Of a stretch of 64,000 nt of DNA, positions 28,480 through 50,418 are shown piece by piece (position 1 is the first letter of the stretch; each line of letters opens with the position of its first letter). The translations under genes and the position numbers were made by a program. The notes beneath the pieces were generated by a model, which was given only the letters and a program-made list of their open reading frames with translations, had not been told where the DNA came from and did no database searches. Origin of the DNA: Prolixibacteraceae bacterium. GTDB lineage: Bacteria > Bacteroidota > Bacteroidia > Bacteroidales > Prolixibacteraceae. The stretch covers positions 1 to 64,000 of the forward strand of contig WTWZ01000002.1 in NCBI GenBank assembly GCA_009773765.1, in the 5' to 3' direction.

Positions 28480-28480
28480 T

Positions 28481-29293: not shown

Positions 29294-29294
29294 T

Positions 29295-30116
29295 TTATTT
29301 TACCAGTTCAACCTTCATTTTTACATCCTGCAGTGGCCGGTTTGCTGAATTAGTTTGCACAGTTGCAATTTTATCAATAACATCAAGGCCCTCAACCACT
29401 TCGCCAAAAACTGTATATTCACCATCAAGCGAAGGATAACCACCAATTGTTGTATAAACCTGGCGCTGTTCCCGGCTCAATTCAAATTCAGGACTGGCAT
29501 CATAAATACTATCGACTTTCATGTTAATTTCAGCCACCAGATTATCAAATCCTTCCTTATTATTTTTTTGCTGAAAATCGGTCAACTGGTTGTTTACTGC
29601 CTGAAAATTTTCCCTCATCATCAAATCTTTGCGCTGTTTGTTGATGTTGATTTCCATAGTATCCAACTGCCCTGGCCGATACACCACTCCATGAACAATG
29701 TAAAACTGCGAACCGCTCGATTCTTTTTTTGGATTTCGCGGACCACCCAGCCGTGCTGCCGCCAAAGCTCCTTTTTTATGAAAATATTTCGGATTGATTT
29801 CAGCCGGAATTGTGTAACCCGGACTTCCGCTGCCAAGTTGTATGTCAGGTTGTGCATTCCGGGAATTGGGATCGCCGCCCTGTATCATGAAATGGTTGAT
29901 TACCCTGTGAAAAAGCAGGCCATCGTAAAAACCTTCAGAAACCAGTTTAATAATATTGTCACGATGTTTTGGCGTATCATCAAACAATTTCACTTTAATT
30001 TCGCCAAATTCTGTTTTTATCAATATCATTTTTTCACCAGTACTTTTCCCGTTTGTTCCGCACGAAACTCCGGAAACAAGCAATGCAGCAACAATAAAAG
30101 TTAGAAACTTCTTCAT
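29295..30116 (-). CDS. Lipoprotein cyclophilin-type peptidyl-prolyl isomerase
   Basis: From ATG 30116 the 273-residue product has a lipoprotein signal (KKFLTFIVAALLVSGVSCG). The core has FHRVINHFMIQGGDPNSRNA, KKGALAAARLGGPRNPK, GSQFYIVHGVVY and GEYTVFGEVVEGLDVIDKI. An insertion rich in Asn, Lys and Gln sits between the core halves. It is the first gene of the trio, with a TAnnTTTG promoter 46 bases upstream. A large open frame on the other strand (29355-30104) is a shadow. Confidence 0.9.
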   Translation of the reverse strand: MKKFLTFIVAALLVSGVSCGTNGKSTGEKMILIKTEFGEIKVKLFDDTPKHRDNIIKLVSEGFYDGLLFHRVINHFMIQGGDPNSRNAQPDIQLGSGSPGYTIPAEINPKYFHKKGALAAARLGGPRNPKKESSGSQFYIVHGVVYRPGQLDTMEININKQRKDLMMRENFQAVNNQLTDFQQKNNKEGFDNLVAEINMKVDSIYDASPEFELSREQRQVYTTIGGYPSLDGEYTVFGEVVEGLDVIDKIATVQTNSANRPLQDVKMKVELVK

Positions 30117-30161
30117 TTTTTGAAAATTTGTATAAATCACAATTCTTATTTAAACTGCCTG

Positions 30162-30734: not shown

Positions 30735-30936
30735 TAATTTTGATTGTCTCGCTCAATACCTCAATTTCATCTCCAGGCCTTAGTTTTGCACGCTTTCTGA
30801 ATTCCTGTATCCCATTCAGAAAAACCCCGCCATCTTCAACTATTATTTTTGCATGACCGCCGGTTTCGGCTATCCGCAGCAGTTTTATCAGTTTTATCAG
30901 TTCTATGTATTCTGAAGTGAGTTTAAATTTGCGCAT
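30727..30936 (-). CDS. RNA-binding S4 domain protein (YbcJ/YaaA-like)
   Basis: The 69-residue product is a single S4 domain: YIELIKLIKLLRIAETGGHA, then IIVEDGGVFLNGIQEFRKRA and LRPGDEIEVLSETIKI. This is the RlbA/YbcJ pattern of a small RNA-binding protein that may act on the ribosome. The ATG shares its first base with the stop of the truncated C1 peptidase relic, and the 3' end overlaps the ACP-like gene. Confidence 0.88.
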   Translation of the reverse strand: MRKFKLTSEYIELIKLIKLLRIAETGGHAKIIVEDGGVFLNGIQEFRKRAKLRPGDEIEVLSETIKITN

Positions 30937-31163
30937 TACAAGTTGAGTTTTTGCTTTATATTTTCAGAAAACCACATTCTGATGATTTCCGATTCGGGAA
31001 AACTGGTAGTAGCGAAACTCCAGCAGGTCCCGGTGTTTCCCTGACTGATTACCGGAAGATGTTTAATCTCTTTTTCGATGGTGAATAATTCTTTTTCTTC
31101 CTGCGCTGCAACATGAATTGAAAAAAAAGGCGATACGATAAGAAGGATTAATAATTTGTTCAT
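30936..31163 (-). pseudogene. N-terminal fragment of a C1 cysteine peptidase (PepC-like)
   Basis: A signal peptide (KLLILLIVSPFFSIHVAAQ) is followed by the active-site region LPVISQGNTGTCWSFATTSF with the catalytic Cys. The frame stops after 75 residues, whereas secreted bleomycin-hydrolase-like C1 peptidases have about 400. The His and Asn of the catalytic triad are missing, so this is inactive. The 3' end fuses to the S4 gene start, which points to a deletion. Confidence 0.75.
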
Positions 31164-31174
31164 TCCCATCAAAA

Positions 31175-31528
31175 TCAATAGCTTTTTAATTTCTGCTGTT
31201 CCTGCTTTTTTAGTTTCATCACAACCAAATCATACGATTCGTCGATTAAATTTTTTACAAAATCATCGGGAATTGAGCCATCAATTTCAACCGTATTCCA
31301 GTGGGTTTTACTCATGTGGTAACCGGGTTTTATGGCCTGAAATTCCTCCCTGAGTTCAATATTTTTCTCGGGGCCATTTTTTACATTAATTGACAGGGGC
31401 CCATTCAAACCGGTCAAACAAAACATTTTGCCAACCACCTTAAAAACAAGTGTATTTTCATCGAATGGGAAGTCTTCGGTTACACCTTTCAGGGAAAGAC
31501 AATACATGCGGAGCTCTTCTATATTCAT
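31175..31528 (-). CDS. MmcQ/YjbR family protein
   Basis: The 117-residue protein reads EELRMYCLSLKGVTEDFPFD, then VFKVVGKMFCLTG and GYHMSKTHWNTVEIDGSIPD, with a final SYDLVVMKL. These are the standard blocks of the MmcQ/YjbR (CyaY-like fold) family, which has a possible DNA-binding role that is not well established. It is intact and 12 bases upstream of the C1 peptidase relic. Confidence 0.9.
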   Translation of the reverse strand: MNIEELRMYCLSLKGVTEDFPFDENTLVFKVVGKMFCLTGLNGPLSINVKNGPEKNIELREEFQAIKPGYHMSKTHWNTVEIDGSIPDDFVKNLIDESYDLVVMKLKKQEQQKLKSY

Positions 31529-34973: not shown

Positions 34974-35693
34974 CTACACAAACTTCTCCCGTTTCTGTAA
35001 ATTGAAAAGCCCGTAAAGAATAAACACAATCATTCCAACCCCAAGGAAAATGCGGTTTTTGAACACAATTCCCTGCCAGATAACCTGGTTCATGTTGTTG
35101 GGTATTTCAAACGGGTTCAAAAAAACATTCCATTGCGAGCGCTCCAGTTGTTCGGACAAGATGATTAAGGCCACGCCAATTAAAACCATAACCACCGCGG
35201 TTCCGTTTCCGTTTTTAATCAGGGTTGAAAACATAAATGCCATAGAGCCCATGAAAACAATGGGATACATTAACTGGTACGACATTTCGGGCAAATTAAC
35301 CGGAAACAACAGCACCGATGCAACAGCGGCAAACAGGTTGATGATGATATAAATGAGCACATAAATCATGATAAGCCGCACCAGCCAAACTTTGTAACGG
35401 TAGTTGGGAATTCCGAAAAGGATTTCGAGCATTCGTGCATCGTCGTCGTTTTGAATTCCAAAGGCCGATGGATAAAAAATTAACAGAATTCCCGGGAAAA
35501 TAAGCAGGTTATAAATGGTCCCGTCCACAATACTTCCACCTTCCAAAACTCTCTGAACGGTGAAAAATGCGAAAAATGCAAACGCCGAAAGTAAAAACCA
35601 GATAAACTTATTTGCAAAAATTATTTTCAGGTTATACCTGATCATCCTCGTTATAATAATAAACTGGTTTTTTAGATTATCTCTTCTACTCAT
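34974..35693 (-). CDS. ABC-2 type permease, last gene of the RND/ABC cluster
   Basis: The 239-residue protein has six predicted membrane spans, among them FIWFLLSAFAFFAFFTVQRV, LLIFPGILLIFYPSAFGIQN, VWLVRLIMIYVLIYIIINLF and the last, FLGVGMIVFILYGLFNL. The loop NDDDARMLEILFGIPNYRYK after span two is typical of ABC-2 permeases. It begins 4 bases after the RND-ABC fusion gene, so it is probably the membrane partner of that protein's ATPase domain. No ATPase of its own. Confidence 0.75.
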   Translation of the reverse strand: MSRRDNLKNQFIIITRMIRYNLKIIFANKFIWFLLSAFAFFAFFTVQRVLEGGSIVDGTIYNLLIFPGILLIFYPSAFGIQNDDDARMLEILFGIPNYRYKVWLVRLIMIYVLIYIIINLFAAVASVLLFPVNLPEMSYQLMYPIVFMGSMAFMFSTLIKNGNGTAVVMVLIGVALIILSEQLERSQWNVFLNPFEIPNNMNQVIWQGIVFKNRIFLGVGMIVFILYGLFNLQKREKFV

Positions 35694-35697: not shown

Positions 35698-38600
35698 TTA
35701 CTGTTTTTTGAAATCCTTCAATAAGCATAAATAAGCGTCTTCGAGGTGAGGGGAAACATTAACTGCATTCTCGTTTGGTTTATCCATCGAAAGACAGCGC
35801 ACCCTGATATTTTCGCCATCGCGCATGTGGTGCACAATCAGTTTTTTGTCGGCAATGTTGTCAAATTCCTTTGCGGGAATGGTAAACTGCCACACAAAAC
35901 CTTCGCCCATATATACCATGTCGCCCGGGGTTCCGAAGTATTTCAAATCGCCGCGGTTGATAACGGCCACCTGGTTGCACGAGCTCGAAATATCTTCGAT
36001 AATATGTGTCGAGAAAATCACAATCCTTTCCCGGCTTAATTCAACAAGCAAGTTACGGAAACGGATTCGTTCGCGCGGGTCAAGGCCCGCAGTTGGCTCG
36101 TCAACCACCAATATGCGGGGCAGGTTGAGCAGGATTTGTGCAATACCGATACGCTGTTTCATACCGCCTGAAAATGAACCAATTTTATCGTTCCGGCGTT
36201 CGTACATGTGAACGCTTTTCAATACATAATCAATTCTTTCGTCGCGGGTTTTGGCGTCTTTTATCCCTTTCAGAATGCCCTGGTAATCGAGAAATTCCAC
36301 TGCCGACATATTTTCATATGTTCCGAATGCTTGTGGCAAATAACCAATTAACCCCTGTAATTCCTCGCGGTATTTCTGCGTGTCGAGCCCGTTAATCCAA
36401 ATTTTGCCATAACTCTGTTCAAGTATTCCGCAAATAATCCGCATCATGGTCGATTTACCGGCGCCATTTGGGCCAAGTAAACCAAACATCCCCGTGTTAA
36501 TTTCGAGAGAAACCCCGTTCAATGCACGGAATGGTTTTTTTCGTTTGCCGAAAACCGGTATCTGCCGGACCATGTTGAAATAACCACGGCGCAATCCAGC
36601 CAAACGGCCTTCAATGCGGGCAATGTTGAGGTTCTTTTTTTGTATGTAATCGCCTGATCTGTAAATAACAAGCAGTAAATACCAAATTACGCCCACAAAA
36701 ATCAACATTCCGATGTTGTCCCACTTTTTGAAAAACATACCTAAAAACACCAATGGGACTATCCAGTAAATAATATTGCTGACAAAACGGTTTATTTTCA
36801 GGAATTTTTGTTTTCCGGTAGCCGCGTGTTTATTGATAAGCACCTGGTTAACAGGCTCGTTCAAAATAAAAAGGAAGAAAAATACGAAGTGTGACAAAAC
36901 CCACATCCAGAAATTACTTTCGAGATAAAAGAAAGTGAAATAAACCAGGAAAAAAAACATTGGGATTTGCCAGACGAGATCGTTAAAATCGCGTGCTTTT
37001 TTGTAGTCTTTCAATAATCCGGCGCTCTCCCTGATTTTGATGCCCGATTTCCATTCGCGGACAAAACGGCTGTCGCGGTCATAAATTTTAACCAGTTTCC
37101 TGACCTCAATTTTAATAGTTTCATTTTCACCAATCACCTTAACACTGGCGCTTCGCAAACTGGTTATTACAAAAGCCACAATTCCCGGCACCAAAATAAT
37201 CAGCAACATAAAATTGAGCAACTGCCAAATAAAAGTATCTACCCTGAAATAAATGAAAACCGCACCGGTGATAAAGGTGATTGACATTCCTGTTTTCAGC
37301 ATCCAGTTGAGCGATTTAATCCAGTTGAGGGCATTTTCCAAACCGGCATACAGCGTGGGTATGAAAACCAGCGTGAGTAAAGTGCTTACGGTTAAACCGC
37401 CAATTACGGTGATGGCAAACGGTGCGCCAATAGCCCCTACATATTCGGCTTTGCCCATGGCCAGCGGAAACAACGCTACAATGGTTGTTCCGGCAGTAAT
37501 TAAAATAGGCCGGACCCTTGAAAGGCCTGCAGTTATTAAGGCCCGCGATTTGCGATGGCCCTGCTTGCGTAAAATATTGGTATAATCAATTAAAATAATC
37601 CCGTTGTTTACCACCACGCCCAGCAGTATGATAAAACCCATGAGCGTATTTGCATTAAACAAGGTGTTGCCAGTTATAATCAGTGCCACAAACGAACCAA
37701 TAGCCGCCAGCGGCACCGAAAACATAAGGACAAACGGGGTTACCACAGACTCAAAAACCGCAGCAAGAATCATTAAAATGAGAATAAATGCCGCCCCGAT
37801 TAAAAAGTAGAACTCGGAATACTGATCTTCCTCGTGAATTACTTCAACCGCAACACCGGGGGGCAATTTATACGAACTCACAATTTCGTCTATTTCAAGC
37901 CGGTATGCTTCCAAAAGGTCTTTTGATTGTTCTGCCTCTTCGATAAAACGGTAAGTAAGCTCGATTTGTTTTTCCTGGTCAATCCGGGTAATACTCGACG
38001 TGCCGCTTGCATAAACCAAATCGGCGATATCCTGCAAATCGTAATTTGCCCCCTGGCTGTTGCTAATTTGCAGCCGCCGTAAATCGTCAATTCCCTTTTC
38101 GGTTTGTTCTTCTTCCTCCTCTTGGGTAAGTTTTTGTTTTACAATAATTTCGTACTCTTCACTTCCCTGCTTGAAATTTACGCCCGAAGTAAATTCGCGG
38201 GTAAACGACCCCAGTTCAGAAGCAACATTGTTCAGGTTAATGCCATACTCGGTAAGAAGCAACTGGTTAAAATACAGATGCACTTCGGGGCGGTTGCTGG
38301 CAACACTGATGTTTGCATTTCTTATCGATTCCAGATCTTCAATATAATATTCGAGGTCTTCGGCAACTCCTCTCATTACCTCGAAGTTTTCGCCTTTTAT
38401 AACAACCCGTTCCTGGTTGGCCCCAATTCCCATAAAATTGCTGAACCCCTGCGTTCCGGAGCGCCCGCCGCCTCCGCCGCCCCGAAAACTTGCACTCGAT
38501 GTGGGCGCTGTTAAACTGATTTCGGCCTGTGCAATATTTCTAATCCGGTTTTCAACATCCGTTTTTACTTCGGCAATGCTCCTGTTGTCAATGTCTTTAT

Positions 38601-40425
38601 AATCTTCTTTGAAAATGAAAGTCAGGATAGCTTCCTCCGCCTGAATTTTAGATATTAAATCTTTCTTTTCAGGAATTTCTGCAAGCCGCGATTCTGCTTC
38701 GGCAACAACCAAATCGGTACTTTCGAGGGTTGAACCGGTTGGCATGGTAACATAAATTGAAAACTGTGTTTCCTCCACTTCCGTAAGATTGTTGATGCTT
38801 AGGGCCAGAACTATAAAAATGGTAACAAAAAACAAAACGATTGCGCCGATAATTGTTGTTGCAGGCCCACGCATACTCGATTTCAGCAGTAAAACATAAA
38901 TCTGAACAATGCGGTTGTCAGTGGTAACTTTTTCGTAAAAAATATTTTCCGGCTTTTTCCCTTTCAGAAGTAAATGAGCTGCAATTGGAATAAGCATTAA
39001 AGCTACAAACAGCGAAATAACCATGGTTGAAATAATGGAAATCCCAATGTGGTTGCCCAGCAATTTCACCATATAATCTGTTGAAAATATGAAAGGCAAA
39101 AAAACGGTAATTGTGGTAAGTGTGGAGGCAAAAATCGATCGCCATACTTCGGTTGTACCTTGTACAACAGCAAGGTCGGCATCATATCTTTTCCCTGCAA
39201 GCCGGTAAATATTTTCGAGTACCACAATACTGTTGTCGAGCAGCATACCAATGGCCAGCACCAATCCCACCAGCGTTAAACTGTTAAGGGAAATATTGAA
39301 TGCATAAAAAAGGTTGAATGCCGTAAATACCGAAACCGGAATGGCAAGCGCAATAAATGAGACTATCCGCAGGTTTTTGAGGAATATCCACAACACGAAA
39401 ATAGCAAGCAGCCCGCCAACCAGGGCCAAATCGATAATCTGATCGATATTTTTTTCCATGGTTTCGGCCAGGTTGGTTTGAACAACAATTTCCACATCTT
39501 TTGGCGCCAGTTTTTTATTCAGTTCAACAATTTCTTCCTGAACCCGGTTAGAAAGATCGATTAGATTGGCCTGCGAATCGCTTACCAATAAAATGGAAAC
39601 CGCATCGAGCCCGTTAACGCGGCTTATGGTTTCCTCTTCCTTTACGCCAAAATACACGTCGGCAACATCTTTTAGATAAACAGGCCCTTCAGCAACAATG
39701 ATGTTTTCAATATCCGAAACATTTTCATACTCGGCGGTTACATGCACAAAATACTGCTTTTTTGAGTCGTGCAGGTATCCGGTGAAAACCCTGTTTCTTG
39801 AATTCTGACTGACAGCATTCCGGAGCTGTGAAGGTGTAATTCCATAAGCTTCGCAAGCGGCCAGGTTGTATGTTACTTCTATTGAGCGTTCTTTGCCCCC
39901 GAACACAGTAGCCGATGCTATTCCGTCGGTATTTTCAATATCGGCCAGTATTTCCTTGTCAACAATATTTCTTAACCTGTCGGTGCCGCCTGTCCCGCGT
40001 ACCTGCAATTCCATGAACTGGTTTGTAAGCTGCTGAATATCGACCCTGTTCACCCTGACGATAAAGTTTTCATCAAGATTATCGGTAACCTGGTCAATTT
40101 TTTCCTGTAGTTTTAGAAAGGTGTATTTAAAATCAGTATTCTGCTGAAAGTTTACCTGAATAGTAGCTGTGCGGTTGTTTAAAAACGACTCCATGCTTTC
40201 TATTCCTTCCATAGTGCCAATTGCGCCTTCAATCGGGATAACGGCCTGGTTTTCCATGTATTTTGGATCAACCTCAATGCGCGACTGTACCTGCACAAAA
40301 AGCATGGGCAGTTCGGCATTTGGCATTAACTCAACCGGCAACCTTTTGTATGAGACGTACCCTAACATGGTAAGCCCCAGGAACAACATGCTGATGAATA
40401 TTTTTCTGTTTATGATGAATTTCAT
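35698..40425 (-). CDS. RND efflux permease fused to six membrane spans and an ABC ATPase
   Basis: One uninterrupted frame encodes 1575 residues. Residues 1-1030 are a complete RND (AcrB-like) permease with 12 spans; TM4 carries GMLLDNSIVVLEN near 397 and TM10 GVVVNNGIILIDY. A Gly-rich loop (FRGGGGGGRSG) sits near 648. Residues 1035-1285 add six spans and basic linkers. Residues 1300-1575 are an ABC ATPase: Walker A GPNGAGKST near 1318, FSGGMKQR near 1416, VVDEPTAGLD near 1440 and STHI near 1470. The ATPase resembles the free ATPase at 49525. Start at ATG 40425, four bases after the previous stop. Confidence 0.9.
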   Translation of the reverse strand: MKFIINRKIFISMLFLGLTMLGYVSYKRLPVELMPNAELPMLFVQVQSRIEVDPKYMENQAVIPIEGAIGTMEGIESMESFLNNRTATIQVNFQQNTDFKYTFLKLQEKIDQVTDNLDENFIVRVNRVDIQQLTNQFMELQVRGTGGTDRLRNIVDKEILADIENTDGIASATVFGGKERSIEVTYNLAACEAYGITPSQLRNAVSQNSRNRVFTGYLHDSKKQYFVHVTAEYENVSDIENIIVAEGPVYLKDVADVYFGVKEEETISRVNGLDAVSILLVSDSQANLIDLSNRVQEEIVELNKKLAPKDVEIVVQTNLAETMEKNIDQIIDLALVGGLLAIFVLWIFLKNLRIVSFIALAIPVSVFTAFNLFYAFNISLNSLTLVGLVLAIGMLLDNSIVVLENIYRLAGKRYDADLAVVQGTTEVWRSIFASTLTTITVFLPFIFSTDYMVKLLGNHIGISIISTMVISLFVALMLIPIAAHLLLKGKKPENIFYEKVTTDNRIVQIYVLLLKSSMRGPATTIIGAIVLFFVTIFIVLALSINNLTEVEETQFSIYVTMPTGSTLESTDLVVAEAESRLAEIPEKKDLISKIQAEEAILTFIFKEDYKDIDNRSIAEVKTDVENRIRNIAQAEISLTAPTSSASFRGGGGGGRSGTQGFSNFMGIGANQERVVIKGENFEVMRGVAEDLEYYIEDLESIRNANISVASNRPEVHLYFNQLLLTEYGINLNNVASELGSFTREFTSGVNFKQGSEEYEIIVKQKLTQEEEEEQTEKGIDDLRRLQISNSQGANYDLQDIADLVYASGTSSITRIDQEKQIELTYRFIEEAEQSKDLLEAYRLEIDEIVSSYKLPPGVAVEVIHEEDQYSEFYFLIGAAFILILMILAAVFESVVTPFVLMFSVPLAAIGSFVALIITGNTLFNANTLMGFIILLGVVVNNGIILIDYTNILRKQGHRKSRALITAGLSRVRPILITAGTTIVALFPLAMGKAEYVGAIGAPFAITVIGGLTVSTLLTLVFIPTLYAGLENALNWIKSLNWMLKTGMSITFITGAVFIYFRVDTFIWQLLNFMLLIILVPGIVAFVITSLRSASVKVIGENETIKIEVRKLVKIYDRDSRFVREWKSGIKIRESAGLLKDYKKARDFNDLVWQIPMFFFLVYFTFFYLESNFWMWVLSHFVFFFLFILNEPVNQVLINKHAATGKQKFLKINRFVSNIIYWIVPLVFLGMFFKKWDNIGMLIFVGVIWYLLLVIYRSGDYIQKKNLNIARIEGRLAGLRRGYFNMVRQIPVFGKRKKPFRALNGVSLEINTGMFGLLGPNGAGKSTMMRIICGILEQSYGKIWINGLDTQKYREELQGLIGYLPQAFGTYENMSAVEFLDYQGILKGIKDAKTRDERIDYVLKSVHMYERRNDKIGSFSGGMKQRIGIAQILLNLPRILVVDEPTAGLDPRERIRFRNLLVELSRERIVIFSTHIIEDISSSCNQVAVINRGDLKYFGTPGDMVYMGEGFVWQFTIPAKEFDNIADKKLIVHHMRDGENIRVRCLSMDKPNENAVNVSPHLEDAYLCLLKDFKKQ

Positions 40426-40429: not shown

Positions 40430-43400
40430 TTATTTTCTGACAAATACCCCCCTGAACCTGTCGAGCACATCGAAAACACATGGAATTACCACCAGGGTCA
40501 GCAATGTTGATGTTACCAACCCTCCAATAACTGCAAGCGCCATGGGTGATCGTAATGATGCACTTTCACCAAAACCGATTGTTAATGGCAATAAAGCCAG
40601 AATAGTAGTTAAGCTTGTCATGATAATCGGGCGGATTCGCTGCTGGCCGGCCTGTATTATGGCCATTTTACGTTCCTGCCCGTCGCGCATTAACTGGTTA
40701 ATCCGATCGACCAGAATAATTGAGTTGTTAACCGCAATGCCCACAAGCATAATGATTCCGATAATTGCCATAATGTTGATGGTTTTACCCAATACAAAAA
40801 ATGTTACAACTGTACCAACCAACGCAAGCGGAATGGTTAAAAGAATGGTAAAAGGGTGAACAAGCGACTCGAACTGAGATGCCAAAACCATATAAACCAG
40901 CACGATGGAGAGCAGCAAAGCAAATGAAAGATTATTCATTGATTCCTGTCTTTTTTCCTCTTCCCCGGTTACCTGGATACGATAGTTATTTTGTAAATCG
41001 ATTGTGGAAACTGCCCCGCGTATTTCGGCAGCAACTTTGTCGAGTGCAACACCTTTGGCTAGTTGTGCCGTAACTTTTCCGATACGGGCCTGGTTGCGCC
41101 TGAAAATTTCTTTTGGCGACGAACCTATTGTAATATCAGCTATTTCACTTAACCTGAAAACCTGGCCGCCCGAAGTAATCATTATCTGATTTACCTCATT
41201 CAGCCCCATTTCGGGGACCTTTATGGTGATGTCGCGCATTTCGCCATCTCTTTCAAGCTGTCCGGCAGTTTTACCTTCCAACTGATCCTGTATCTGGGTC
41301 ACAACTGTGTTGATATTAATGTTGTACATACCGGCGCGCAACCGGTCAACCTTCACTTCCACTTCCGGGGCGCCATCTTCAACTGAGGTTTGAACGTTAA
41401 ACAACTTGTCCATACCAAGCAATTTCTCCTTTACCTGTTCAACCACATTTTCAATTTCGTCCATTTCTTCACCGCGAACTTCAACTACCAAAGGGGCTTC
41501 ATTAGTTCCAAGAATTGTATTCAGCGAACTTTGTTCCTGTTTGAAACTGACTTCAACACCGGCAATATCCGAGGTTAAATTATCAACTGAGGCAATAACC
41601 GATTCAGTTGAAACGGACGATTCACCGCTAAGAATTATGGTCATTTCGGCTGTATTTTCTCCTTCAAATACAGAGGTTTCATCTCCTGATATTCCCGAAG
41701 AAGGCCCGATATGCGAATAAATGGTTTTCAGGTTTTCTCCCAGATAATCAGTTAAAATAACTTCCAGGTTTTGCACCATCGACTCAGTGCGTTCCAGTTT
41801 TGTGCCTTCCTGCAATTTTAAACTAACTGTGAATTCACGCGATTGTGTTTTTGGCATAAATTCGGTGCCAAGTTGCGGAACCAATAAGAGCGATGCTGCT
41901 ATTAAAACAATGGATAAGATGATTACCAGCCATTTAACATTTAAAATCTTTTCGAGAAAACGGCCATACCTGCGTACCTGAACTGATTTTATCGTTTGTG
42001 TTGATTTTTTGTTTCGGTAGAACCTGTAAAACATGGTGGGAATCAGGAAAATGGCCACAAACAGCGATGAAACTAACGAAAATGCCACAGTCCATGCCTG
42101 ATCTTTAAATAATTCGCCTGAAGCGCCGTGCAGATAAACTATCGGCAGAAATACTACAATAGTGGTTAAGGTGGAAGCCGTAATTGCCCCGCCAACTTCG
42201 GCCGTGCCATTAATTGCCGAATCGCGCACGCTCATGCCGCTTTCGTTATTCCTGAAAATATTTTCCATTACCACAATAGCATTATCCACAAGCATACCTG
42301 CCCCGAGCGCAAGCCCTCCCAATGTCATTATGTTAATGGTAAGATCGTTGAAATACATTAAATTGAAGGTGGCAATAATTGAAATGGGAATTGCCACGCT
42401 AACAATTAGGGTGGAGCCAATTCTGCGAAGAAATACAAACAAAATAACTACTGCCAGCAAAATCCCAATCAGGGCGGTTTGTTGCACCTCGCCAATAGCA
42501 TCGCTGATAAATTTACCCTGGTTGGTTACCTGGGTGAGTTTGTACCCCGGCAAAGCTTTTTCTATCTGAACCAACGCTTCTTTGATTTGCTCCACCGATT
42601 TTACAGTGTTGTACTTTGTTTCCTTATAAACAGAGAGGCCCACGCAACGCTCGCCGTTAATATGCACAATATTAAACGGTTCTTTATTACCATACGAAAC
42701 AGTAGCGACATCTTTCAGAAAAATGGGAGCCCGCTGAATGGTGGTTTGCCCCTCGGCAGAAACCCGGGTTGCCTTGTAGCCGACAATCAGGTTTTCAAAA
42801 TCTTCCTTGTCGCGCAACATGCTGACGCCTTTAACAATGTATTGCATCCCAAGTTCGCTGATGCGGCCCCCTGAAACATTTCGGTTAAAGTTTTGTATGC
42901 GAGTGCTCACCTCGTCGAGCGACAGATTTTGAGCTTCGAGGCGGTATAAATCGGTTTCAATAATCACTTCGCTTTCTTCCTGTCCCGAAAGCTCAACTTC
43001 GGCAACTCCTTCCAGCCGGACCAGTTCGTTGCGGATATAACTTTCTGCAACTTTACGGATTTCGTTCATATCGGTAATTTCGGAATGAGTTAAACCGATA
43101 ATCATAACAGGCGAAGTATTCGGATCGTGCTGTGTTATTTTGAGATCGTCGATGTCGGAGTTCTGGGTAAGATCATTCAACGATTTCTGCAAATCCAGAA
43201 AAGCCTCATCCATGTCTTTATTCCAGGCATATTCAACCGTAATTTGGGCAGTGCCCACTTTCGATACCGAAGTAACCTGGGTAACACCCGATTGGCGCAT
43301 GGCCAGCGCTTCGATATTTTCGACAAATTGCTTCTCCATCTCTTCTGGCGGCCGCTCTCCCGATTGAACTTCCACGAATATCCGGGGCGAATTTAAATCG

Positions 43401-43516
43401 GGGAAAAGGTCAACGCCCAGTTTTCGGAAAGAAATGGCGCCCAGAAGAATAACCCCAAGGACCACCATTAAAATCGTTACCGGGTAATCGACAGAAAATT
43501 GCGTTAATTTCTTCAT
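40430..43516 (-). CDS. RND efflux permease (AcrB/MdtB-like)
   Basis: The 1028-residue permease begins KKLTQFSVDYPVTILMVVLG and has two repeats of one span, a large periplasmic loop and five spans. TM4 reads GMLVDNAIVVMENIFRN with a single Asp, TM10 VGIAVNNSIILVDRINQ. LASQFESLVHPFTILLTIPL is the typical HAE1 segment. It exports amphiphilic compounds using the proton gradient together with the upstream fusion protein and TolC homologue. It is followed four bases later by the RND-ABC fusion, so two RND subunits may form a hetero-oligomer, as in MdtBC. Confidence 0.92.
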   Translation of the reverse strand: MKKLTQFSVDYPVTILMVVLGVILLGAISFRKLGVDLFPDLNSPRIFVEVQSGERPPEEMEKQFVENIEALAMRQSGVTQVTSVSKVGTAQITVEYAWNKDMDEAFLDLQKSLNDLTQNSDIDDLKITQHDPNTSPVMIIGLTHSEITDMNEIRKVAESYIRNELVRLEGVAEVELSGQEESEVIIETDLYRLEAQNLSLDEVSTRIQNFNRNVSGGRISELGMQYIVKGVSMLRDKEDFENLIVGYKATRVSAEGQTTIQRAPIFLKDVATVSYGNKEPFNIVHINGERCVGLSVYKETKYNTVKSVEQIKEALVQIEKALPGYKLTQVTNQGKFISDAIGEVQQTALIGILLAVVILFVFLRRIGSTLIVSVAIPISIIATFNLMYFNDLTINIMTLGGLALGAGMLVDNAIVVMENIFRNNESGMSVRDSAINGTAEVGGAITASTLTTIVVFLPIVYLHGASGELFKDQAWTVAFSLVSSLFVAIFLIPTMFYRFYRNKKSTQTIKSVQVRRYGRFLEKILNVKWLVIILSIVLIAASLLLVPQLGTEFMPKTQSREFTVSLKLQEGTKLERTESMVQNLEVILTDYLGENLKTIYSHIGPSSGISGDETSVFEGENTAEMTIILSGESSVSTESVIASVDNLTSDIAGVEVSFKQEQSSLNTILGTNEAPLVVEVRGEEMDEIENVVEQVKEKLLGMDKLFNVQTSVEDGAPEVEVKVDRLRAGMYNININTVVTQIQDQLEGKTAGQLERDGEMRDITIKVPEMGLNEVNQIMITSGGQVFRLSEIADITIGSSPKEIFRRNQARIGKVTAQLAKGVALDKVAAEIRGAVSTIDLQNNYRIQVTGEEEKRQESMNNLSFALLLSIVLVYMVLASQFESLVHPFTILLTIPLALVGTVVTFFVLGKTINIMAIIGIIMLVGIAVNNSIILVDRINQLMRDGQERKMAIIQAGQQRIRPIIMTSLTTILALLPLTIGFGESASLRSPMALAVIGGLVTSTLLTLVVIPCVFDVLDRFRGVFVRK

Positions 43517-43550: not shown

Positions 43551-44612
43551 CTACAGAATTATTTTCACTTTAGAGTTATCGCGAAGTGTTTCAAATCCTT
43601 TGATAATTAAGCGTTCGTTTTCTTTCAGGCCTTCGGTAACTTCCACAAAATCCTTGTTTTCAATTCCGGTTTGAATCATACGGTCGTCGGCAGCGTTGTT
43701 GCGTTCAACCACAAAAACATATTTTCCGCGGTTACCAGTCAGGATAATATTTTTAGGAATAACAAGCACACTGTCCTTTTTTGCGGTAATAATGTCGGCC
43801 TTTACAAACATTCCGGGCCGGAGCTTCAGCTCGGGATTATTTATCAGGAGTTTTCCGCTGAAAGTCCTGGTTTCAGAGCTGATCATTGGCGAAAGTGCGC
43901 TTACCAAACCAATCAACGTATCCTGCTCAATGGTATAATTGGTAACAATTGCCTCTTGTCCCAGTTGAACTTCGGAAATGCTTTTTTCGGGCAGGTTAAT
44001 CTCAACATACATTTTATCGTAGCTCATCAGGCTAACCATTTGCTGACCGGAATTAACCCTCGTACCCTTTGTATAGTAGGGCAAATCAACAATAACGCCC
44101 GAAAAAGGCGCTACAACGTTCATTTTTGCAAGTCGTATCTGGGCGCTTTCATAGTCGTATTGCGCATTTGTCCGCGAAACTTCTGAATTGCGCAATTCGC
44201 GCAGGGTTACGCCACCTTTTTCATACAACGATTTTTGTTTTTCGTACTCGTTTTCCGATATTTCGAGGTTCAGCTTTTTCGATTCAATTGCCAGTGCATT
44301 AATATATTCCGGATCTTCAAAACGGACAATTATCTGCCCTTCCTTTACCTTGTCGCCCAGTTTAAAAGGTTTTCCGGTGGATGGATTGGCAAGCAAATGA
44401 TACTGTCCCGACACTTCGGAATTTAAAGTAGTTTCATAAATGGCTTTCGCTGTACCTGTTGTATTAATGAACTGGCTGATACTTTGTTTTCTCACATTTT
44501 CAACCGAAACCGGAACAGCCAACTCGGTAGTTTCGCCCTGGGGCTGATTGTTGCACGATATTGCAGCCAATGCAACCGCTCCCATGATTAAAAGTAATTT
44601 TATATTCTTCAT
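43551..44612 (-). CDS. RND periplasmic adaptor (membrane fusion protein)
   Basis: The 353-residue lipoprotein has LLIMGAVALAAISCNNQPQG as lipobox. The lipoyl half (residues 60-85, 150-185) and hairpin (EISENEYEKQKSLYEKGGVT) are followed by the barrel (VEINLPEKSISEVQLGQEAI) and PGMFVKADIITAKKDSVLVI. It bridges the RND permease and the outer-membrane channel. It is 9 bases after the TolC-like gene and 34 bases before the RND gene. Confidence 0.92.
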   Translation of the reverse strand: MKNIKLLLIMGAVALAAISCNNQPQGETTELAVPVSVENVRKQSISQFINTTGTAKAIYETTLNSEVSGQYHLLANPSTGKPFKLGDKVKEGQIIVRFEDPEYINALAIESKKLNLEISENEYEKQKSLYEKGGVTLRELRNSEVSRTNAQYDYESAQIRLAKMNVVAPFSGVIVDLPYYTKGTRVNSGQQMVSLMSYDKMYVEINLPEKSISEVQLGQEAIVTNYTIEQDTLIGLVSALSPMISSETRTFSGKLLINNPELKLRPGMFVKADIITAKKDSVLVIPKNIILTGNRGKYVFVVERNNAADDRMIQTGIENKDFVEVTEGLKENERLIIKGFETLRDNSKVKIIL

Positions 44613-44620: not shown

Positions 44621-46111
44621 TTATTTTTCAGTTCCATTATTTACATTCAAATATAATTCGGCAGGTAAAATGGGCCCGCCTTTTTCAAAATCGTAAAGCG
44701 ATTGTATTTTCAGGTTAAGCAGTTCAATTTTATAATTAATAAGCGCCTGTGCCAGTGAAAGTTTCCGTTCGGAAAGCTGCGCCTGATAAAGGTTTAAATC
44801 CATACCGGTAAGGTCGCCGTTTTGGTATCTTTCGAGATTGATTTCGTAAGTTAATTGTGCATTGGTTTCACTTTGTTTTGCAATTTCAATCTGGTTCAAC
44901 TGGTTCTGCAAATTGCGGAATACCTGGCGGATTCCGATAATAATCTGCTTTTTCTCTTCCGAAAGGTTTAGTTCCTGTGTTTTTATGGTAGCTTCCTGGG
45001 CAGCAATGCGGGCTTTCTTTTCGCCCCAGTCGAAAATAGGGATACTGAAACTCAGGTTAACAGAAGGGCTGCGGGTTGGGGAATTAAAAATTTTTGTAAT
45101 GTCCGGATCGTCGCCTGAAATACCAAGGCGCAAATTCAAATCGGCACGAAATTCGTTTAATGATTTGGTTTGAATCATATCAAACTGGCTTGTTTCGATG
45201 TCAATTTCACGCTGGCGGAGTTCCATGCGCGATTTAAGCCCATTTTCAATTGCAATGTCCATATCAACTTTTACCGGATTGGCTGCAACATCGGCCAACA
45301 CAATAATATCCTGAAACAAATCCATTCCCAGGTAAAGTTTTAACTGATCTTTTGAGTTTTCGTATGCAACTTCTGCGTTCTGCAGCGATGATTTGGAGGT
45401 TGACAAGTTCAATTCTGCCTGATAAAACTCCTCTTTTGCTGCCAGTCCTGCATCAACTTTGTTTTTAATGATTTCATAGCTATTCTGCGTGTTTACCAGT
45501 TCTTCCTGTGCAATGGCCAGATTTTTCTGGGCCATAAAAACATTGTAAAAAAACTGGGTTACGTTTTTTTCGAGGTTTAACCGTTGAATTGCGTAACTTA
45601 TATTTGCATTTTCATAGTTCAGTTCAAGTTCCTTCAATTGCAGTTTCAGCCTGTTATAAGTAAAAAGCGGCTGATTGACATTTAAAAACAGGTTGTTGTA
45701 AAACCTTTCACTAATAGTTGTTGTGTTATTGGCGTCAGAACTACTGCTCTGCCATCCAAAATCGTTCGATAATGTAATAGTCCCATCGGTAGGCAAAATG
45801 GGTTGCGAAATCAGGAACCGGGCGTTTGATGTAAAATTTTCGTTGGTGTACCATTCCGAAACCCTGGTGTCGAACCGCCGCTGGTTGCTGAAATTTACGG
45901 GCGTAACATCCAACGAAAGACGCGATTTTAACGCAGCACGCTGTGCCTCAAGGTTCTTCTGGAACCGTTCGAGATTTAATAATGACATTTGCAGGTCGGG
46001 GCTGCCTGTCTCCGAAATTTGCAGGGCTTTTTCGAGGGTCATCGCTTCCTGCGCCTGTAACCCTGTAAAACCAAGAAATATGAAAATCCCCAGAATTACG
46101 ATTTTTTGCAT
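44621..46111 (-). CDS. TolC family outer-membrane channel protein
   Basis: The 496-residue protein has a signal peptide (IVILGIFIFLGFTGLQAQ) and two repeats of long coiled-coil helices: the first around YFN-rich QRLNLEKNVTQFFYNVFMAQ, the second around TKSLNEFRADLNLRLGISGD and IPIFDWGEKKARIAAQEAT. This is the OEP/TolC pattern with the IPIFDWG marker. It supplies the exit duct of the tripartite pump encoded downstream. Confidence 0.92.
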   Translation of the reverse strand: MQKIVILGIFIFLGFTGLQAQEAMTLEKALQISETGSPDLQMSLLNLERFQKNLEAQRAALKSRLSLDVTPVNFSNQRRFDTRVSEWYTNENFTSNARFLISQPILPTDGTITLSNDFGWQSSSSDANNTTTISERFYNNLFLNVNQPLFTYNRLKLQLKELELNYENANISYAIQRLNLEKNVTQFFYNVFMAQKNLAIAQEELVNTQNSYEIIKNKVDAGLAAKEEFYQAELNLSTSKSSLQNAEVAYENSKDQLKLYLGMDLFQDIIVLADVAANPVKVDMDIAIENGLKSRMELRQREIDIETSQFDMIQTKSLNEFRADLNLRLGISGDDPDITKIFNSPTRSPSVNLSFSIPIFDWGEKKARIAAQEATIKTQELNLSEEKKQIIIGIRQVFRNLQNQLNQIEIAKQSETNAQLTYEINLERYQNGDLTGMDLNLYQAQLSERKLSLAQALINYKIELLNLKIQSLYDFEKGGPILPAELYLNVNNGTEK

Positions 46112-46149: not shown

Positions 46150-49100
46150 CTATTGTTCTACCAGTTTAACGGCATCTGCAAAAATCATTTTAAGTTTCGA
46201 TTTATTGGAAAGCTCTACAAGTGCAGTGTCGGAAGTAAAATAATAGGTGCCCAGGTGGTTCCAACCATTTTCGGCATTTTTGTTGTCGATAACTGCTTCC
46301 TGGGCGCCTTCGTCACCGTGTATGGTAAAATTGTATTCCCCGCTGTCATCGCCGCCGCCACCGCCGCCACCGCCCCGGCTAAACATACGGGCTTTGTACA
46401 TGTGCACATACACATCAAAGTATCCGGGTATTTTTACCGGAATATGCCATTGTGCTTTTAAATCGCCTGTTCCTCCTTTAATATAGTATGCCGAACGCAC
46501 GTAATCGCCGTAAAAATCGGAATTGGTAATGGCAGTCCAGTTGGTTGGCGGCCGCCACATATTTATTCCGGAATATTTACTCTGGCTTTTTTTCTCTTTT
46601 ACAATCCATTTTTCGAGTAAACTGATTTTTTCATTTTTAGTAATTGCGAACCGGGGATCTTCGTTATCCACAATTGTTTCGTTTGGTAACGCCATTTGAA
46701 CCGGCGTGTCTGAAACTCTTTCGAATTCAGCCGGAATTGCCTTGGTATCCTCTTCAATTTCCCTGAAAAACGACATCATGGTTTGCGGGATATTTTTCGA
46801 AGTCATGGTGTTGAGAATGACCATGCGGGGATCGACACTTAACAGGTAACTTAAATCTTTGGTTTGTTTTGGTTTAAGATATACCAACTTGTTAATCACA
46901 TCGCTGCCGCCCATTCCGCCGCCGCGGCCACGGCCCCCACCAGGTCCGCCGCCAAGCCTGAACGAAACTTTCACCAGTCCGTCGGTGTCTGAAAAGTTGG
47001 TTACTTTAAAGGTAACCATGGTTTGAATCTTATCTTCTGATTTTACTTTTACAGCCTTTATGGGCGAAAACAGGTACCCCGGCAAGGTTTTGGCCTTAAA
47101 CCATTCGTCCATTAACGGAATTAACTCAAGATTGAAATTGTCGTGAATTTTCTGTGAAAAAATTTCAAACGAAATATTTTTGAATGAATATTCATTCAGC
47201 AATTCCCTTAAAAATGCCTGGAATTCTTCCTGCCCGGCTTTCCATTCAATCATCGAAAACAGAACATCCCCCTTCAGTTTAATCACATTTTCGATTATCC
47301 CTGTTTGTTTTGGATCGGCCAGAATTTCCTGGAAAGTACTGTCCTGAAGAGCGATGTTTGCCCTTTCGTCAGCGCTTTGCCCCTGCGTATTGCTCATAAA
47401 TACCGAACGCATGTCGGTAACCTGATTTTTAAGATATGCTTCAAAAATGCGGTTGGTAATTGGCCATTTTTCCGACTGTATGTTGTTTTGAAAATTATAC
47501 AACAACGGGAAAATAAAATACGGGTTTAAATTAACCACTTGTGTCCCGCCTCCCGGGCCACCCTGCCAGTTACGTTCCTGTTCCGATGTAAATGTGCCGA
47601 TAAATTCCCCTAAAACACGCAATTCAATATCCATTGGGGTCATATTATTATCGCCACGCCCCCAGCGGGTTACATTTTTCTTTTGGGCCTCAAAATCGAA
47701 AGCCCTGATCATAAAACCTTTTTCTGGGATTAATACCTGTTCGGGCTGTACATATTCCTGCATTGAAGCCCATGCCCTTTTATAGGTTTTGAATTGTGCC
47801 GGTACTTCAACCAGCGTAAGCCTTTCGCTTAAATAGTTGAGCTTATAGGTACGTTTAAAATCTTCGAAGCGTTCGTTTATCACATTCGAAAGGGTGTCGT
47901 TTATTTCTTTAAAAGTATTGGTAAAATAGTCGTGCCCATCAATGTACCAAACACTAAATTCAACATTTTTCCCCTGAAGTGTTTTTTGTTTGTAATTTCC
48001 AACAGCCAACGAAAGTTGCGTAAGCGCATTTTTGTTTTCGAAAGTAAAATGCCCTGCCGTCATTTCCTTTATTTCACCCTGCGATATGGCTTTTAATCCT
48101 TCGCGGGTCTTTACTTCGAGATTAAAATCGATGAATTGTGGCTGGTGCCATGCTATATTTGCCGAACTGTAAGTAACGCCAGTTTTGGGGTACCAGTTGG
48201 CTTCGGGTGTAAGCAACAAATAATCGGGGGTTATAAATGCATATCTTTTATCGACATTGATAACAAACTTGCCATATTTTTTCTGTATAACTTCCTCTTC
48301 GATATCGAGATAGCACAGCGCTTCGTTAATTTTACCTGCATACGAAAACTGAACTTTAATCTCTTTCCCGGGATTAACACTTACTTTATCATTTACCATA
48401 ACAAGGTGTTTTTCGCGCAAAAAGGGAGTTTCGTTTCCGTTAATTTTAAAACTGTTTATTTGCAGTCCGTCATTCAGGCTAAAAATCAGATTATCCAATG
48501 GTTGTCCGGTTTCATTTAATAATGTCATTTCTGAAGTAACCTCAATAGTTTCGGGATTGTGTTGCACTGAAATGGTTTGTGCAAGTGTTGAAGGATTTTT
48601 TACTTCCACATATTTGTTATTTAACCCTACCGCCCCGGCCCTGAATTTTTCGGTAATTTTAAAATTGTTGATGTGATTGTATGCAAGATACCCCCCCCCT
48701 GAAATAAAAACGATGCTTAACACTAATGAAATCCAGGTGGTTGCCTCCGATTGCGGTAATCGTTTTAAAAGGAAAATGGTCATGAAAATAAAACCCAGGC
48801 CGAGCGAAAGATAAATTCCACGGTGAATTATTATGGTTTCGAGATTACCAAAACCAACAATTTCAGAATTCAGCATGGGTATATTGAAGGCCATGTAATC
48901 GAAAATATAATAGAATTTGGCCTGCAACAAAAACAGGGTAATACCGATGTAACCCAGAATAAGCACAAATGTGATTGCCTGGTTGCGAATAACGCTCATG
49001 AGCAGGAATGAAAGCCCCATAATAAAAACCAGTGTAGGTACGCTGATGGCAACCAGGTAAATAGCATAAGAAATCCAGCTTATTCCAATTCCTTTTGCCA

Positions 49101-49506
49101 ACAGGTTAAAAATGAGCGCCATGATTACCACCAGGACATTCAGCACAAGAAAAACCTGCAGGTTGCCCCAGGTTTTACCAACTACATATTCGCCGTTGGT
49201 CATCGAACGCATGTAAATAACTTCGGTGGTATCGAGTTTTTTATCTCGCTTTAAAAAGTCGGACGCAAGAAAAACTGCAATAATTGCCTGGGCAACGTTC
49301 AGTATAAGCAGGTTAAAATACGGAATTGCACCCGGAATACTTCTGATAGCCCAGCCTTCGCCACCACCGCCTTCAATTATCATCCCGAAATTCATCCCGA
49401 AAAGAACCACAAGCGACAGTATTCCGAAGATTCTGAAAAACCAGCTTCTTAACAGAGTTTTACGCTCATATTTTGCTATCGATAGTATGTTGTGAAATGA
49501 TATCAT
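46150..49506 (-). CDS. ABC-2 permease fused to M1-peptidase-like and golvesin-like domains
   Basis: The 1118-residue protein has about six spans in residues 1-275 (WFFRIFGILSLVVLFGMNFG, ILNVAQAIIAVFLASDFLKR and others), typical of an ABC-2 exporter. Residues 290-800 resemble an M1 aminopeptidase (LTPEANWYPKTGV, LTLVEVPAQFKTYKRAW), but no HExxH zinc motif is present, so hydrolysis is unlikely. A Gly-rich loop lies near 849-865. Residues 980-1118 match a golvesin/xanthan-lyase-like C-terminal domain (GWNHLGTYYFTSDTALVELS, IFADAVKLV), interrupted by eight Gly near 1045. A run of nine G codes residues near 269. It follows its ATPase by 18 bases. Confidence 0.8.
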   Translation of the reverse strand: MISFHNILSIAKYERKTLLRSWFFRIFGILSLVVLFGMNFGMIIEGGGGEGWAIRSIPGAIPYFNLLILNVAQAIIAVFLASDFLKRDKKLDTTEVIYMRSMTNGEYVVGKTWGNLQVFLVLNVLVVIMALIFNLLAKGIGISWISYAIYLVAISVPTLVFIMGLSFLLMSVIRNQAITFVLILGYIGITLFLLQAKFYYIFDYMAFNIPMLNSEIVGFGNLETIIIHRGIYLSLGLGFIFMTIFLLKRLPQSEATTWISLVLSIVFISGGGYLAYNHINNFKITEKFRAGAVGLNNKYVEVKNPSTLAQTISVQHNPETIEVTSEMTLLNETGQPLDNLIFSLNDGLQINSFKINGNETPFLREKHLVMVNDKVSVNPGKEIKVQFSYAGKINEALCYLDIEEEVIQKKYGKFVINVDKRYAFITPDYLLLTPEANWYPKTGVTYSSANIAWHQPQFIDFNLEVKTREGLKAISQGEIKEMTAGHFTFENKNALTQLSLAVGNYKQKTLQGKNVEFSVWYIDGHDYFTNTFKEINDTLSNVINERFEDFKRTYKLNYLSERLTLVEVPAQFKTYKRAWASMQEYVQPEQVLIPEKGFMIRAFDFEAQKKNVTRWGRGDNNMTPMDIELRVLGEFIGTFTSEQERNWQGGPGGGTQVVNLNPYFIFPLLYNFQNNIQSEKWPITNRIFEAYLKNQVTDMRSVFMSNTQGQSADERANIALQDSTFQEILADPKQTGIIENVIKLKGDVLFSMIEWKAGQEEFQAFLRELLNEYSFKNISFEIFSQKIHDNFNLELIPLMDEWFKAKTLPGYLFSPIKAVKVKSEDKIQTMVTFKVTNFSDTDGLVKVSFRLGGGPGGGRGRGGGMGGSDVINKLVYLKPKQTKDLSYLLSVDPRMVILNTMTSKNIPQTMMSFFREIEEDTKAIPAEFERVSDTPVQMALPNETIVDNEDPRFAITKNEKISLLEKWIVKEKKSQSKYSGINMWRPPTNWTAITNSDFYGDYVRSAYYIKGGTGDLKAQWHIPVKIPGYFDVYVHMYKARMFSRGGGGGGGGDDSGEYNFTIHGDEGAQEAVIDNKNAENGWNHLGTYYFTSDTALVELSNKSKLKMIFADAVKLVEQ

Positions 49507-49524: not shown

Positions 49525-50418
49525 TTAAACATTGCTCCATTGATTTAGCCTGTTCTCCATAAAATGAACATAAGCATGTTCAAGGTTCGGCCTGATTTGC
49601 TCTCCGTAGTAACCGTTAATGTCGCCGGCCACTACCTGAACCTCCCAGCCCCCATCAACCGGAATAGTTGAAATAACAGGGTATTTCTCATTAATCTCGA
49701 GATATTCCTTTTCTGTGGCTTTAATGAGCCAAACATTACCTTCGGCTTCTTTCACCAATTCCCCTGGCGAACCGGCAAAAGCAAGTTTACCTTTGTTTAA
49801 CAAAGCCATGTTGTCGCAGGTACTCGAAATATCGCCAACAATATGGGTTGAAAGTATGATAATTACATCGCGCGTACTGATGGTTGAAAGCAGGTTACGG
49901 AACCTTATGCGTTCTTCGGGGTCGAGGCCTGTGGTAGGTTCGTCAACAATAATTATTTTGGGGTCGTTTATCAGGGCCTGGGCAATTCCAAGCCGTCGTT
50001 TCATGCCGCCTGAAAGTTTGTTGGCATTACGGTCGCGGGCTTCGAACAAACCCACTTCCTCGAGCATTTGTTCAACTGCAGTGCGGCGTTTAGCCGAATT
50101 TTTCATTCCTGCCAGGCGGGCTGCATAATCTAAAAATTCATACGTTTTTAATTTCGAAAAGAAACTGAAATCCTGTGGCAAATAACCAAGCATAGATCGA
50201 ATTTCGCGCCTGTGTTTGGCCAAGTCCATGCCGTTAACCAAAACCCTGCCACTGCTTGGTTTCATCAGGGTTACCAAAATACGCATCAAAGTTGATTTGC
50301 CCGCTCCGTTAGGCCCCAGCAGGCCAAACATTCCGTTTGGTATTTCAAGGTTTAGATTGTTCAATGCGTAGCTTCCGCCCTTGTAAATTTTGTTAAGATT
50401 TTCGATTTTTATTCGCAC
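49525..50418 (-). CDS. ABC transporter ATP-binding protein
   Basis: The 297-residue ATPase has Walker A GPNGAGKST near 36, the signature LSGGMKRRLGIAQ, Walker B IIIVDEPTTGLDPEER and LSTHIVGDIS. It belongs to the exporter type that pairs with ABC-2 permeases. Its sequence is close to the ATPase half of the 1575-residue fusion (shared PNGAGKST, GLDP.ERIRFRNLL and a final PHLEDAY/PNLEHAY block), suggesting duplication. It is the first gene of the cluster; no consensus promoter was found in the 190 bases upstream. Confidence 0.92.
   Translation of the reverse strand: MRIKIENLNKIYKGGSYALNNLNLEIPNGMFGLLGPNGAGKSTLMRILVTLMKPSSGRVLVNGMDLAKHRREIRSMLGYLPQDFSFFSKLKTYEFLDYAARLAGMKNSAKRRTAVEQMLEEVGLFEARDRNANKLSGGMKRRLGIAQALINDPKIIIVDEPTTGLDPEERIRFRNLLSTISTRDVIIILSTHIVGDISSTCDNMALLNKGKLAFAGSPGELVKEAEGNVWLIKATEKEYLEINEKYPVISTIPVDGGWEVQVVAGDINGYYGEQIRPNLEHAYVHFMENRLNQWSNV

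Follow-up and report, generated by a model that had tools for sequence, protein, structure and literature searches.

The locus at positions 35698-40425 of the window (the whole 64,000-nucleotide stretch of DNA that was analysed) raises the question of whether an RND permease and an ABC ATPase are truly joined in one protein and, if so, what kind of machine such a protein would serve. According to a review (PMC8277102), the energized component that a tripartite exporter has in the inner membrane is a member of the ABC, RND or MFS family. The sequence-only reading of this locus had proposed one unbroken frame holding a complete RND permease, six further spans and a full ABC ATPase, and had suggested either an RND complex assisted by ATP or an RND pump physically coupled to an ABC exporter, the two passing on one substrate.

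The fusion gene and its relatives

The fusion protein (FUS) and its parts are located as follows.

35698..40425 (minus strand): RND-ABC fusion protein, 1575 aa; from the open frame, Pfam and relatives
37339..40425 (minus strand): RND permease domain, residues 1-1029; ACR_tran match, conserved Asp397 in TM4
37144..37305 (minus strand): two extra spans, TM13-TM14, approximately residues 1041-1094; hydropathy profile and AlphaFold2
37078..37116 (minus strand): predicted first strand of the ATPase and A-loop Tyr1115, residues 1104-1116, with the motif KLVKIY; AlphaFold2, fold alignment, profile test and family alignment
36532..37077 (minus strand): predicted 182-aa membrane insert, residues 1117-1298, an amphipathic helix and four spans (two in some relatives); hydropathy, AlphaFold2 and alignment
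35701..36531 (minus strand): remaining ATPase, residues 1299-1575, including a C-terminal extension; Pfam, alignment and profile test

The frame of FUS runs without interruption from ATG to TAA (40425-35698, minus strand) and comprises the 1575 codons claimed for it. A GTG at 40479 is an alternative start that would yield a protein of 1593 aa and overlap the upstream RND gene. The ATG of FUS lies 4 bp downstream of the stop codon of that gene (RND1), and the gene for a 239-aa permease (PERM) starts 4 bp after FUS. The Pfam family ACR_tran (PF00873) matches residues 2-1027 over profile positions 3-1018 of 1021 with an E value of 2.3e-163. The score of 545.8 bits against a cut-off of 28 is that of a full-length 12-span permease, in agreement with the original proposal. 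ABC_tran matches residues 1302-1446 (E = 1.1e-27, Pfam), and the ATPase motifs are found at residues 1318-1326 (Walker A), 1419-1425 (signature), Glu1443 (Walker B) and His1474.

Six hydrophobic segments are located C-terminal to the RND domain in a profile averaged over 69 sequences, and the same six segments are helices in the AlphaFold2 model. The six-span linker of 272 aa matches no Pfam family, including ABC-2, at E values up to 10. Among the 60 best of 600 matches in the PDB, no best stretch spans both the RND and the ABC halves of FUS, and the fold-search lists for the C-terminal model were filled by ATPase matches. The window contains no tRNA according to ARAGORN and no Rfam family at gathering scores.

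The C-terminal 431 residues of FUS were used to scan 84,980 species from all phyla, each represented by a single genome. The scan returned 176 encoded relatives, and the best 80 of the 176 were analysed as loci; the taxa named in their titles are Bacteroidota. Homologues covering both halves were found, the RND sequence being in frame with the linker and the ATPase in 78 of the 80 loci. In the remaining two (L021 and L071) the contig begins past the RND/ABC border, and neither a fusion nor a split is visible. Alignment starts at or before residue 10 in 68 of the 78 in-frame loci and at residue 51 in L078, and in the other 9 the contig truncates the gene at a later point. L078 has an additional short frame ahead of residue 51, which indicates a possible frameshift in the RND N-terminus, away from the border.

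The linker was also searched in 393 genomes of the same order, where 52 true matches were obtained with the source genome included (53 raw matches). Frames of 1515-1640 codons are present in 44 of these 52, and the other 8 reach contig ends: three short frames (G650, G529 and G668) run to the end of the contig, and in five genomes (G416, G481, G405, G652 and G672) the match lies at most 2.4 kb from the contig start, where about 3.1 kb is needed for the full frame. Of the 44 genomes, 26 are also among 30 operon regions that were fetched. In a phylum sample of 395 genomes there were 6 true matches, again with the source genome included (7 raw matches). Two linker matches were discarded, one in G440 (order sample) as a UppP-like protein by reading of the sequence and one in G095 (phylum sample) since the operon genes are absent around it. 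A second, weak linker match (E = 4.5e-4) is located on another contig of G750. The linker has no match in plasmid or phage collections.

Homologues that split at the RND/ABC border would speak against a single protein; none was seen in the 80 loci, two of which are contig-cut, or in the 52 true matches of the order sample. The 80-locus set and the 30-region set overlap (e.g., L144 and L028), so their counts are not independent. FUS is also encoded in a complete genome record (NZ_CP007451.1, L033). Since the same fusion recurs in many genomes, including this one, it is neither a chance frame nor an assembly error, and both explanations were rejected. The idea that assembly or annotation joined two genes has a vanishingly small probability in view of the in-frame loci, the complete record and the frame lengths of the order sample. 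On the sequences collected here, the fusion is spread across several lineages of one phylum, yet patchy, and is an old, stable family.

Membrane spans within the ATPase

The alignments and the model place membrane helices inside the ATPase of FUS, such that its first strand and the A-loop tyrosine precede the last four spans. The six spans proposed between the RND and ABC halves are thus present, but they do not form one block: strand 1 of the ATPase follows the second span, leaving two spans N-terminal and four C-terminal to it.

Residues 1104-1116 resemble the start of an ABC ATPase and end close to the A-loop Tyr1115. Leu1111, Val1112, Lys1113 and Tyr1115 are among the residues conserved in at least 98.5% of 69 FUS sequences, and the likeness to an ATPase start is clearer in divergent members, for example IEIRIENLVKVYE in L164. 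An AlphaFold2 model of residues 1020-1575, constructed from 46 sequences, has a mean pLDDT of 76.8 and a pTM of 0.52, and it contains a strand at residues 1106-1115 with a local pLDDT of approximately 63-72. When this model was compared with known ATPases using VIA-align, the aligned ranges, of which the ends are considered here, start at model residues 79-86 in all 50 rows listed, and in all 50 these starts lie opposite the N-termini of the known ATPases.

For the profile test, 52 stretches of the linker, each 18 residues long, were placed before residue 1296 and scored against the profile of the free-standing ATPase encoded nearby. The five stretches that start at residues 1100-1105 score 809-812, and the other 47 score at most 802.2. 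The median of all stretches is 799, and the score with no stretch added is 790.8. Plain hhalign with the insert left in aligned FUS at residues 1290-1572 only, short of strand 1.

The insert is 182 residues long in 57 of 69 and in 10 of 31 FUS proteins, and 166-185 residues long in most others. In the divergent fusions L164 and L165 it has 110 residues and two spans by hydropathy, apparently a natural length variant that would preserve the topology. The longest inserts have 209 (L167) and 226 residues (L166), and both contain additional low-complexity Gly/Ser/Asp or polar stretches ahead of the first span. The mean numbers of Lys and Arg are high (13.7 and 10.9) in two predicted cytoplasmic loops and low (0.4 and 0.2) in two predicted periplasmic loops; the short loops 12-13, 16-17 and 17-18, with means of 1.1, 1.9 and 1.5, are little informative. 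The even number of spans and most of the loop charges are compatible with an ATPase located entirely in the cytoplasm.

The seven-gene unit and its two engines

FUS is the sixth of seven genes. The other six are listed in the direction of transcription, with the predicted coupling helix of the last.

49525..50418 (minus strand): free-standing ABC ATPase, 297 aa; closest to the FUS ATPase among those compared
46150..49506 (minus strand): ABC-2-like permease, 1118 aa, with a periplasmic M1-peptidase-like domain that has no HExxH, and Golvesin_C; Pfam
44621..46111 (minus strand): TolC-like outer-membrane channel, 496 aa; Pfam and NCBIfam
43551..44612 (minus strand): periplasmic adaptor (HlyD/RND_mfp), 353 aa; Pfam and NCBIfam
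40430..43516 (minus strand): second RND permease (RND1), 1028 aa; frame, Pfam and conserved residues
34974..35693 (minus strand): PERM, 239 aa, predicted ABC-2/type V transmembrane domain with no Pfam family; AlphaFold2 and fold matches
35415..35438 (minus strand): predicted coupling helix of PERM, residues 86-93; sequence and AlphaFold2 model

The order of ABC ATPase, 1118-aa permease, TolC, adaptor, RND1, FUS and PERM is identical, with all genes on one strand, in 29 of the 30 fetched regions, and the thirtieth is cut by the contig within the 1118-aa gene. Many Bacteroidota, to judge by these regions, carry a conserved seven-gene export machine that contains the RND-ABC fusion. The adaptor, RND1 and FUS genes are in order in all 30 regions, an arrangement of two RND proteins with one adaptor that resembles MdtBC.

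Widely conserved genes beyond the unit were not found within 4 kb downstream or 3.5 kb upstream, and no neighbouring gene in these ranges indicates a substrate. The largest cluster of outside genes is found in 16 of 103 loci downstream and in 4 of 28 upstream, the locus sets being partly overlapping. In L161 (1-2754, plus strand) another protein related to the 1118-aa permease, though more distantly (26% identity), is encoded directly upstream of the operon. Elsewhere in the window, two adjacent genes that precede the operon on its own strand (51643-53143, minus strand) encode secreted proteins, 239 and 237 aa long, which have similar repeats and resemble head-GIN/DUF2807 proteins. Three consecutive genes at 27148-30140 (minus strand) encode peptidyl-prolyl isomerase-like proteins of 443, 270 and 281 aa, named from sequence reading only, the first with a trypsin-like N-terminal part. 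An 80-aa frame at 30936-31178 (minus strand) resembles the start of a papain-like peptidase (GNTGTCWSFATTSF) before it reaches a stop and is perhaps a decayed gene.

The matches of the 1118-aa permease to ABC-2 and M1 are below the Pfam cut-offs (21.1 bits against 27.7 for M1), and the match to Golvesin_C is above. The zinc site HExxH is absent from this protein and from 30 relatives, one of which is a 231-residue fragment that does not extend to the site. Because the M1-like domain has no HExxH and the protein ends in Golvesin_C, a binding domain is more likely than a cleaving one. The protein also contains glycine-rich runs, and it gave a single match in a protein search of its own genome. 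In the open-access literature on golvesin, no transporter paper was found by title. These two domains could belong to a sensor, with the ABC part detecting a periplasmic ligand through them and gating the RND pump by ATP-driven movement. The missing HExxH in the family and the C-terminal Golvesin_C suit such a role, but PERM and both ATPases look like ABC-2 systems of the transport type and PERM has no large periplasmic domain, and we regard a sensor as very unlikely.

PERM was modeled using AlphaFold2 with a pLDDT of 84.7 and a pTM of 0.82. The model has six spans, a short helix at residues 86-93 and no large periplasmic domain. The helix sits at the position of the ABC-2 coupling helix after TM2, as would be expected for a six-span transmembrane domain (TMD). 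The Foldseek matches are weak, with a best E value of 0.012 and none under 0.001, and PmtCD, NosY and ABCG2 occupy the top ranks. In VIA-align the highest Z score, 16.2, was obtained for NosY (rmsd 3.7, 214 residues aligned), and the TMD of ABCA1 is also among the type V fold matches. The best 50 VIA-align matches are all ABC transporters. Sub-threshold Pfam matches to ABC-2 were obtained in some members of the PERM family only, and the comparison of PERM with the TMD of the 1118-aa permease is weak (probability 0.3 out of 100 in hhalign, E = 0.21), with 206 columns in register. On the model, PERM looks like the missing ABC transmembrane domain of the system.

PERM is encoded downstream of FUS on the same strand in 77 of the 80 loci, with a median gap of 12 bp (largest 668 bp, at most 50 bp in 55 of the 77), and in all 30 fetched regions, with a median gap of 7 bp (largest 848 bp). 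No PERM was found within the 0.68 kb between FUS and the contig end in L034 and L089, and the contig of L051 stops with FUS. PERM is present in 52 of 393 genomes in the order sample and in 6 of 395 in the phylum sample, and these are the same 52 and the same 6 that hold FUS (source genome counted in both). At most seven first-look candidates were scored per genome in these searches, which may miss distant relatives. A partial PERM match in G108 (E = 4.3e-4) was judged by score to be due to chance. G768 has a second, partial match on another contig (E = 1.1e-13), the match in G718 is fragmentary and lies at the end of a contig, and FUS and PERM are on different contigs in G491. The co-occurrence bears on whether the fusion serves merely as a tether, fixing the ratio and the place of two systems, an RND pump and an ABC exporter, with separate jobs and no handover. 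Each system does look complete alone, one with RND, adaptor and TolC and the other with two ATPases and two TMDs. PERM without FUS was found in none of the 393 genomes, however, at the sensitivity of the search, nor was any split version encountered; it would seem that separation has not been tolerated over a long evolution. A tether alone is accordingly rated as distinctly unlikely.

The catalytic residues of both ATPases were compared across the family. Lys1324 of Walker A, the SGG of the signature, Asp1442 and Glu1443 of Walker B and the switch residue His1474 are identical in 31 of 31 FUS proteins, which bears out the description of a full ABC ATPase with all four motifs. In the free ATPase, the Walker A Lys, the signature, the Walker B Glu and the switch His are invariant in 31 of 31 rows, 30 of them countable: the row for L173 is a stand-in (the best BLAST match), not the free ATPase gene itself. 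Asp397 in TM4 of FUS is conserved in 69 of 69 and in 31 of 31 sequences, and Asp411 of RND1 in 31 of 31. In AcrB this aspartate is the proton-relay residue; its invariance in the RND half of FUS suggests that the proton drive is intact. Both engines, the two ATPases and the two RND proteins, look alive by these residues.

The RND half of FUS is not of the AcrB type (HAE1). Its TM10 motif reads V-N-N (Asn940/Asn941, 31 of 31) in place of the lysine that is Lys940 in AcrB. The scores for the two AcrB-type NCBIfam subfamilies are 426.9 bits against a cut-off of 1250 and 297.1 against 940, and FUS is below the cut-off of every RND family among the 25 best of 189 NCBIfam rows.

The ATPases of FUS and of the free-standing gene are 42-44% identical and mutually closest among those compared. 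In a tree of 69 ATPase sequences, eight of which are further ATPases from the same genome, one clade holds the 31 FUS ATPases and another the 30 free ones, and the two share a joint clade with a support of 0.79. A duplication of the ATPase within the system is therefore likely. In a small RND tree that includes seven other RND proteins, the FUS halves form one clade and RND1 another, and the two are not sister groups; the two RND proteins may differ in origin. Four ATPase rows and one RND row were left out of the trees as duplicates or as the L173 row. The best PDB sequence matches of the FUS ATPase profile are ABCA lipid transporters, and NosF is among its top fold matches, behind TM_1403.

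Four ABC parts, two ATPases and two TMDs, are encoded in each of the 29 full operons. If the ATPase of FUS were to assist the RND protein, it would speed or gate the RND cycle through TM13-14 and the hairpins, and the other ABC proteins would serve mainly as a scaffold for the ATPase dimer. Wherever the contig is long enough to tell, the ATPase shares a chain with the RND domain, and it has membrane hairpins of its own, as such an assistant might. Two distinct ABC-2-like TMDs, the normal partners of ATPases, are nevertheless encoded beside it, and the invariant TM4 aspartate leaves the proton drive apparently intact; we consider ATP assistance unlikely.

A working model and its relation to known systems

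The reading toward which we lean, if only just, is that a heteromeric RND pump is tied to a heterodimeric type V ABC exporter and that the substrate is handed to one adaptor-TolC conduit. That an RND pump and an ABC exporter are linked, as originally suggested, is well supported by the second ABC ATPase, the ABC-2-like permease and the co-occurring PERM; the handover of a shared substrate, its class and the pairing and stoichiometry of the subunits are what we infer.

In this model the locus would encode a single machine for trans-envelope export, driven by two engines. RND1 could form a mixed pump with the RND part of FUS, and this pump would use one adaptor and one TolC channel, although the two RND proteins need not form one trimer, since they are not sister groups. 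TM13-14, together with the hairpins that lie between strands 1 and 2, would anchor the ATPase of FUS in the membrane. This ATPase would pair with the free ATPase, the two being mutually closest among those compared, as expected for a heterodimer. The two paralogous ATPases and the two unlike type V TMDs would then constitute one heterodimeric ABC exporter, which may take up a substrate that is amphiphilic and perhaps lipid-like, either in the cytoplasm or in the inner leaflet, and move it to the periplasmic side. The nearness in sequence to ABCA lipid transporters and the type V fold make such a substrate plausible, and no more. Once the substrate is on the periplasmic side, the dead-peptidase/golvesin domain may hold it; the RND pump, which the fusion keeps next to the ABC exporter, would pass the substrate on through the adaptor and TolC. 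A stronger version is offered as a tentative conjecture: an obligate dual drive, and a new class of exporter, in which ATP would load and protons would eject the substrate, with one FUS per pump and one ABC heterodimer clamped to each mixed RND trimer by the membrane-threaded ATPase.

The unit shares ACR_tran permeases, an adaptor, TolC and two RND genes per operon with MdtABC-type pumps. RND heterotrimers such as MdtBC are described as rare in a passage of the review (PMC8277102). Unlike MdtABC, one RND protein here carries an ABC ATPase and six further spans, and TolC is encoded within the operon. Like the type V (ABC-2) systems NosFY, PmtCD, ABCG2 and ABCA, the unit has the fold of PERM with its predicted coupling helix and an ATPase nearest to ABCA; it differs in that hairpins interrupt one of the ATPases, which is joined to an RND protein, and in having two different permeases, one with an M1-like/golvesin part.

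MacAB-TolC likewise consists of an ABC engine, an adaptor and TolC, and to our knowledge no RND protein participates in it. MacB is described as a protein with four spans that has its ATPase at the N-terminus and possesses a large periplasmic domain (PMC5595328). The unit studied here differs in the added RND pump and in its ABC-2-like permeases. No Pfam match to MacB/FtsX was obtained at an E value of 0.001 in the six proteins scanned, and the ATPase of FUS is C-terminal.

The insertion in the ATPase has a parallel in CFTR, where Trp401 is the A-loop residue and the regulatory insertion (RI) is located between strands 1 and 2. The RI of NBD1 corresponds to residues 405-436 (PMC3776845). Both insertions occur just past the A-loop; the RI amounts to about 32 disordered residues, in contrast to the 110-226 residues with two or four spans of the FUS insert.

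Every module of the unit is of a known kind. No description of an RND-ABC fusion, of this seven-gene unit or of spans within an ATPase core was found in the open-access literature searched, and we know of no ABC ATPase described with membrane hairpins inserted between its first two strands. There is a fair chance that the system merits a class of its own. ABC and RND, two of the three classes named in the review (PMC8277102), are here welded together, and have stayed so, in several lineages of one phylum. Energized classes that are usually seen as alternatives seem to have been combined into a single machine. Through the fusion, one gene product becomes a place to test whether inner-membrane and trans-envelope pumps hand over substrates. 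An ATPase threaded through the membrane suggests, in addition, that the ABC catalytic domain tolerates spans within its core fold, which is of interest for the evolution of ABC proteins.
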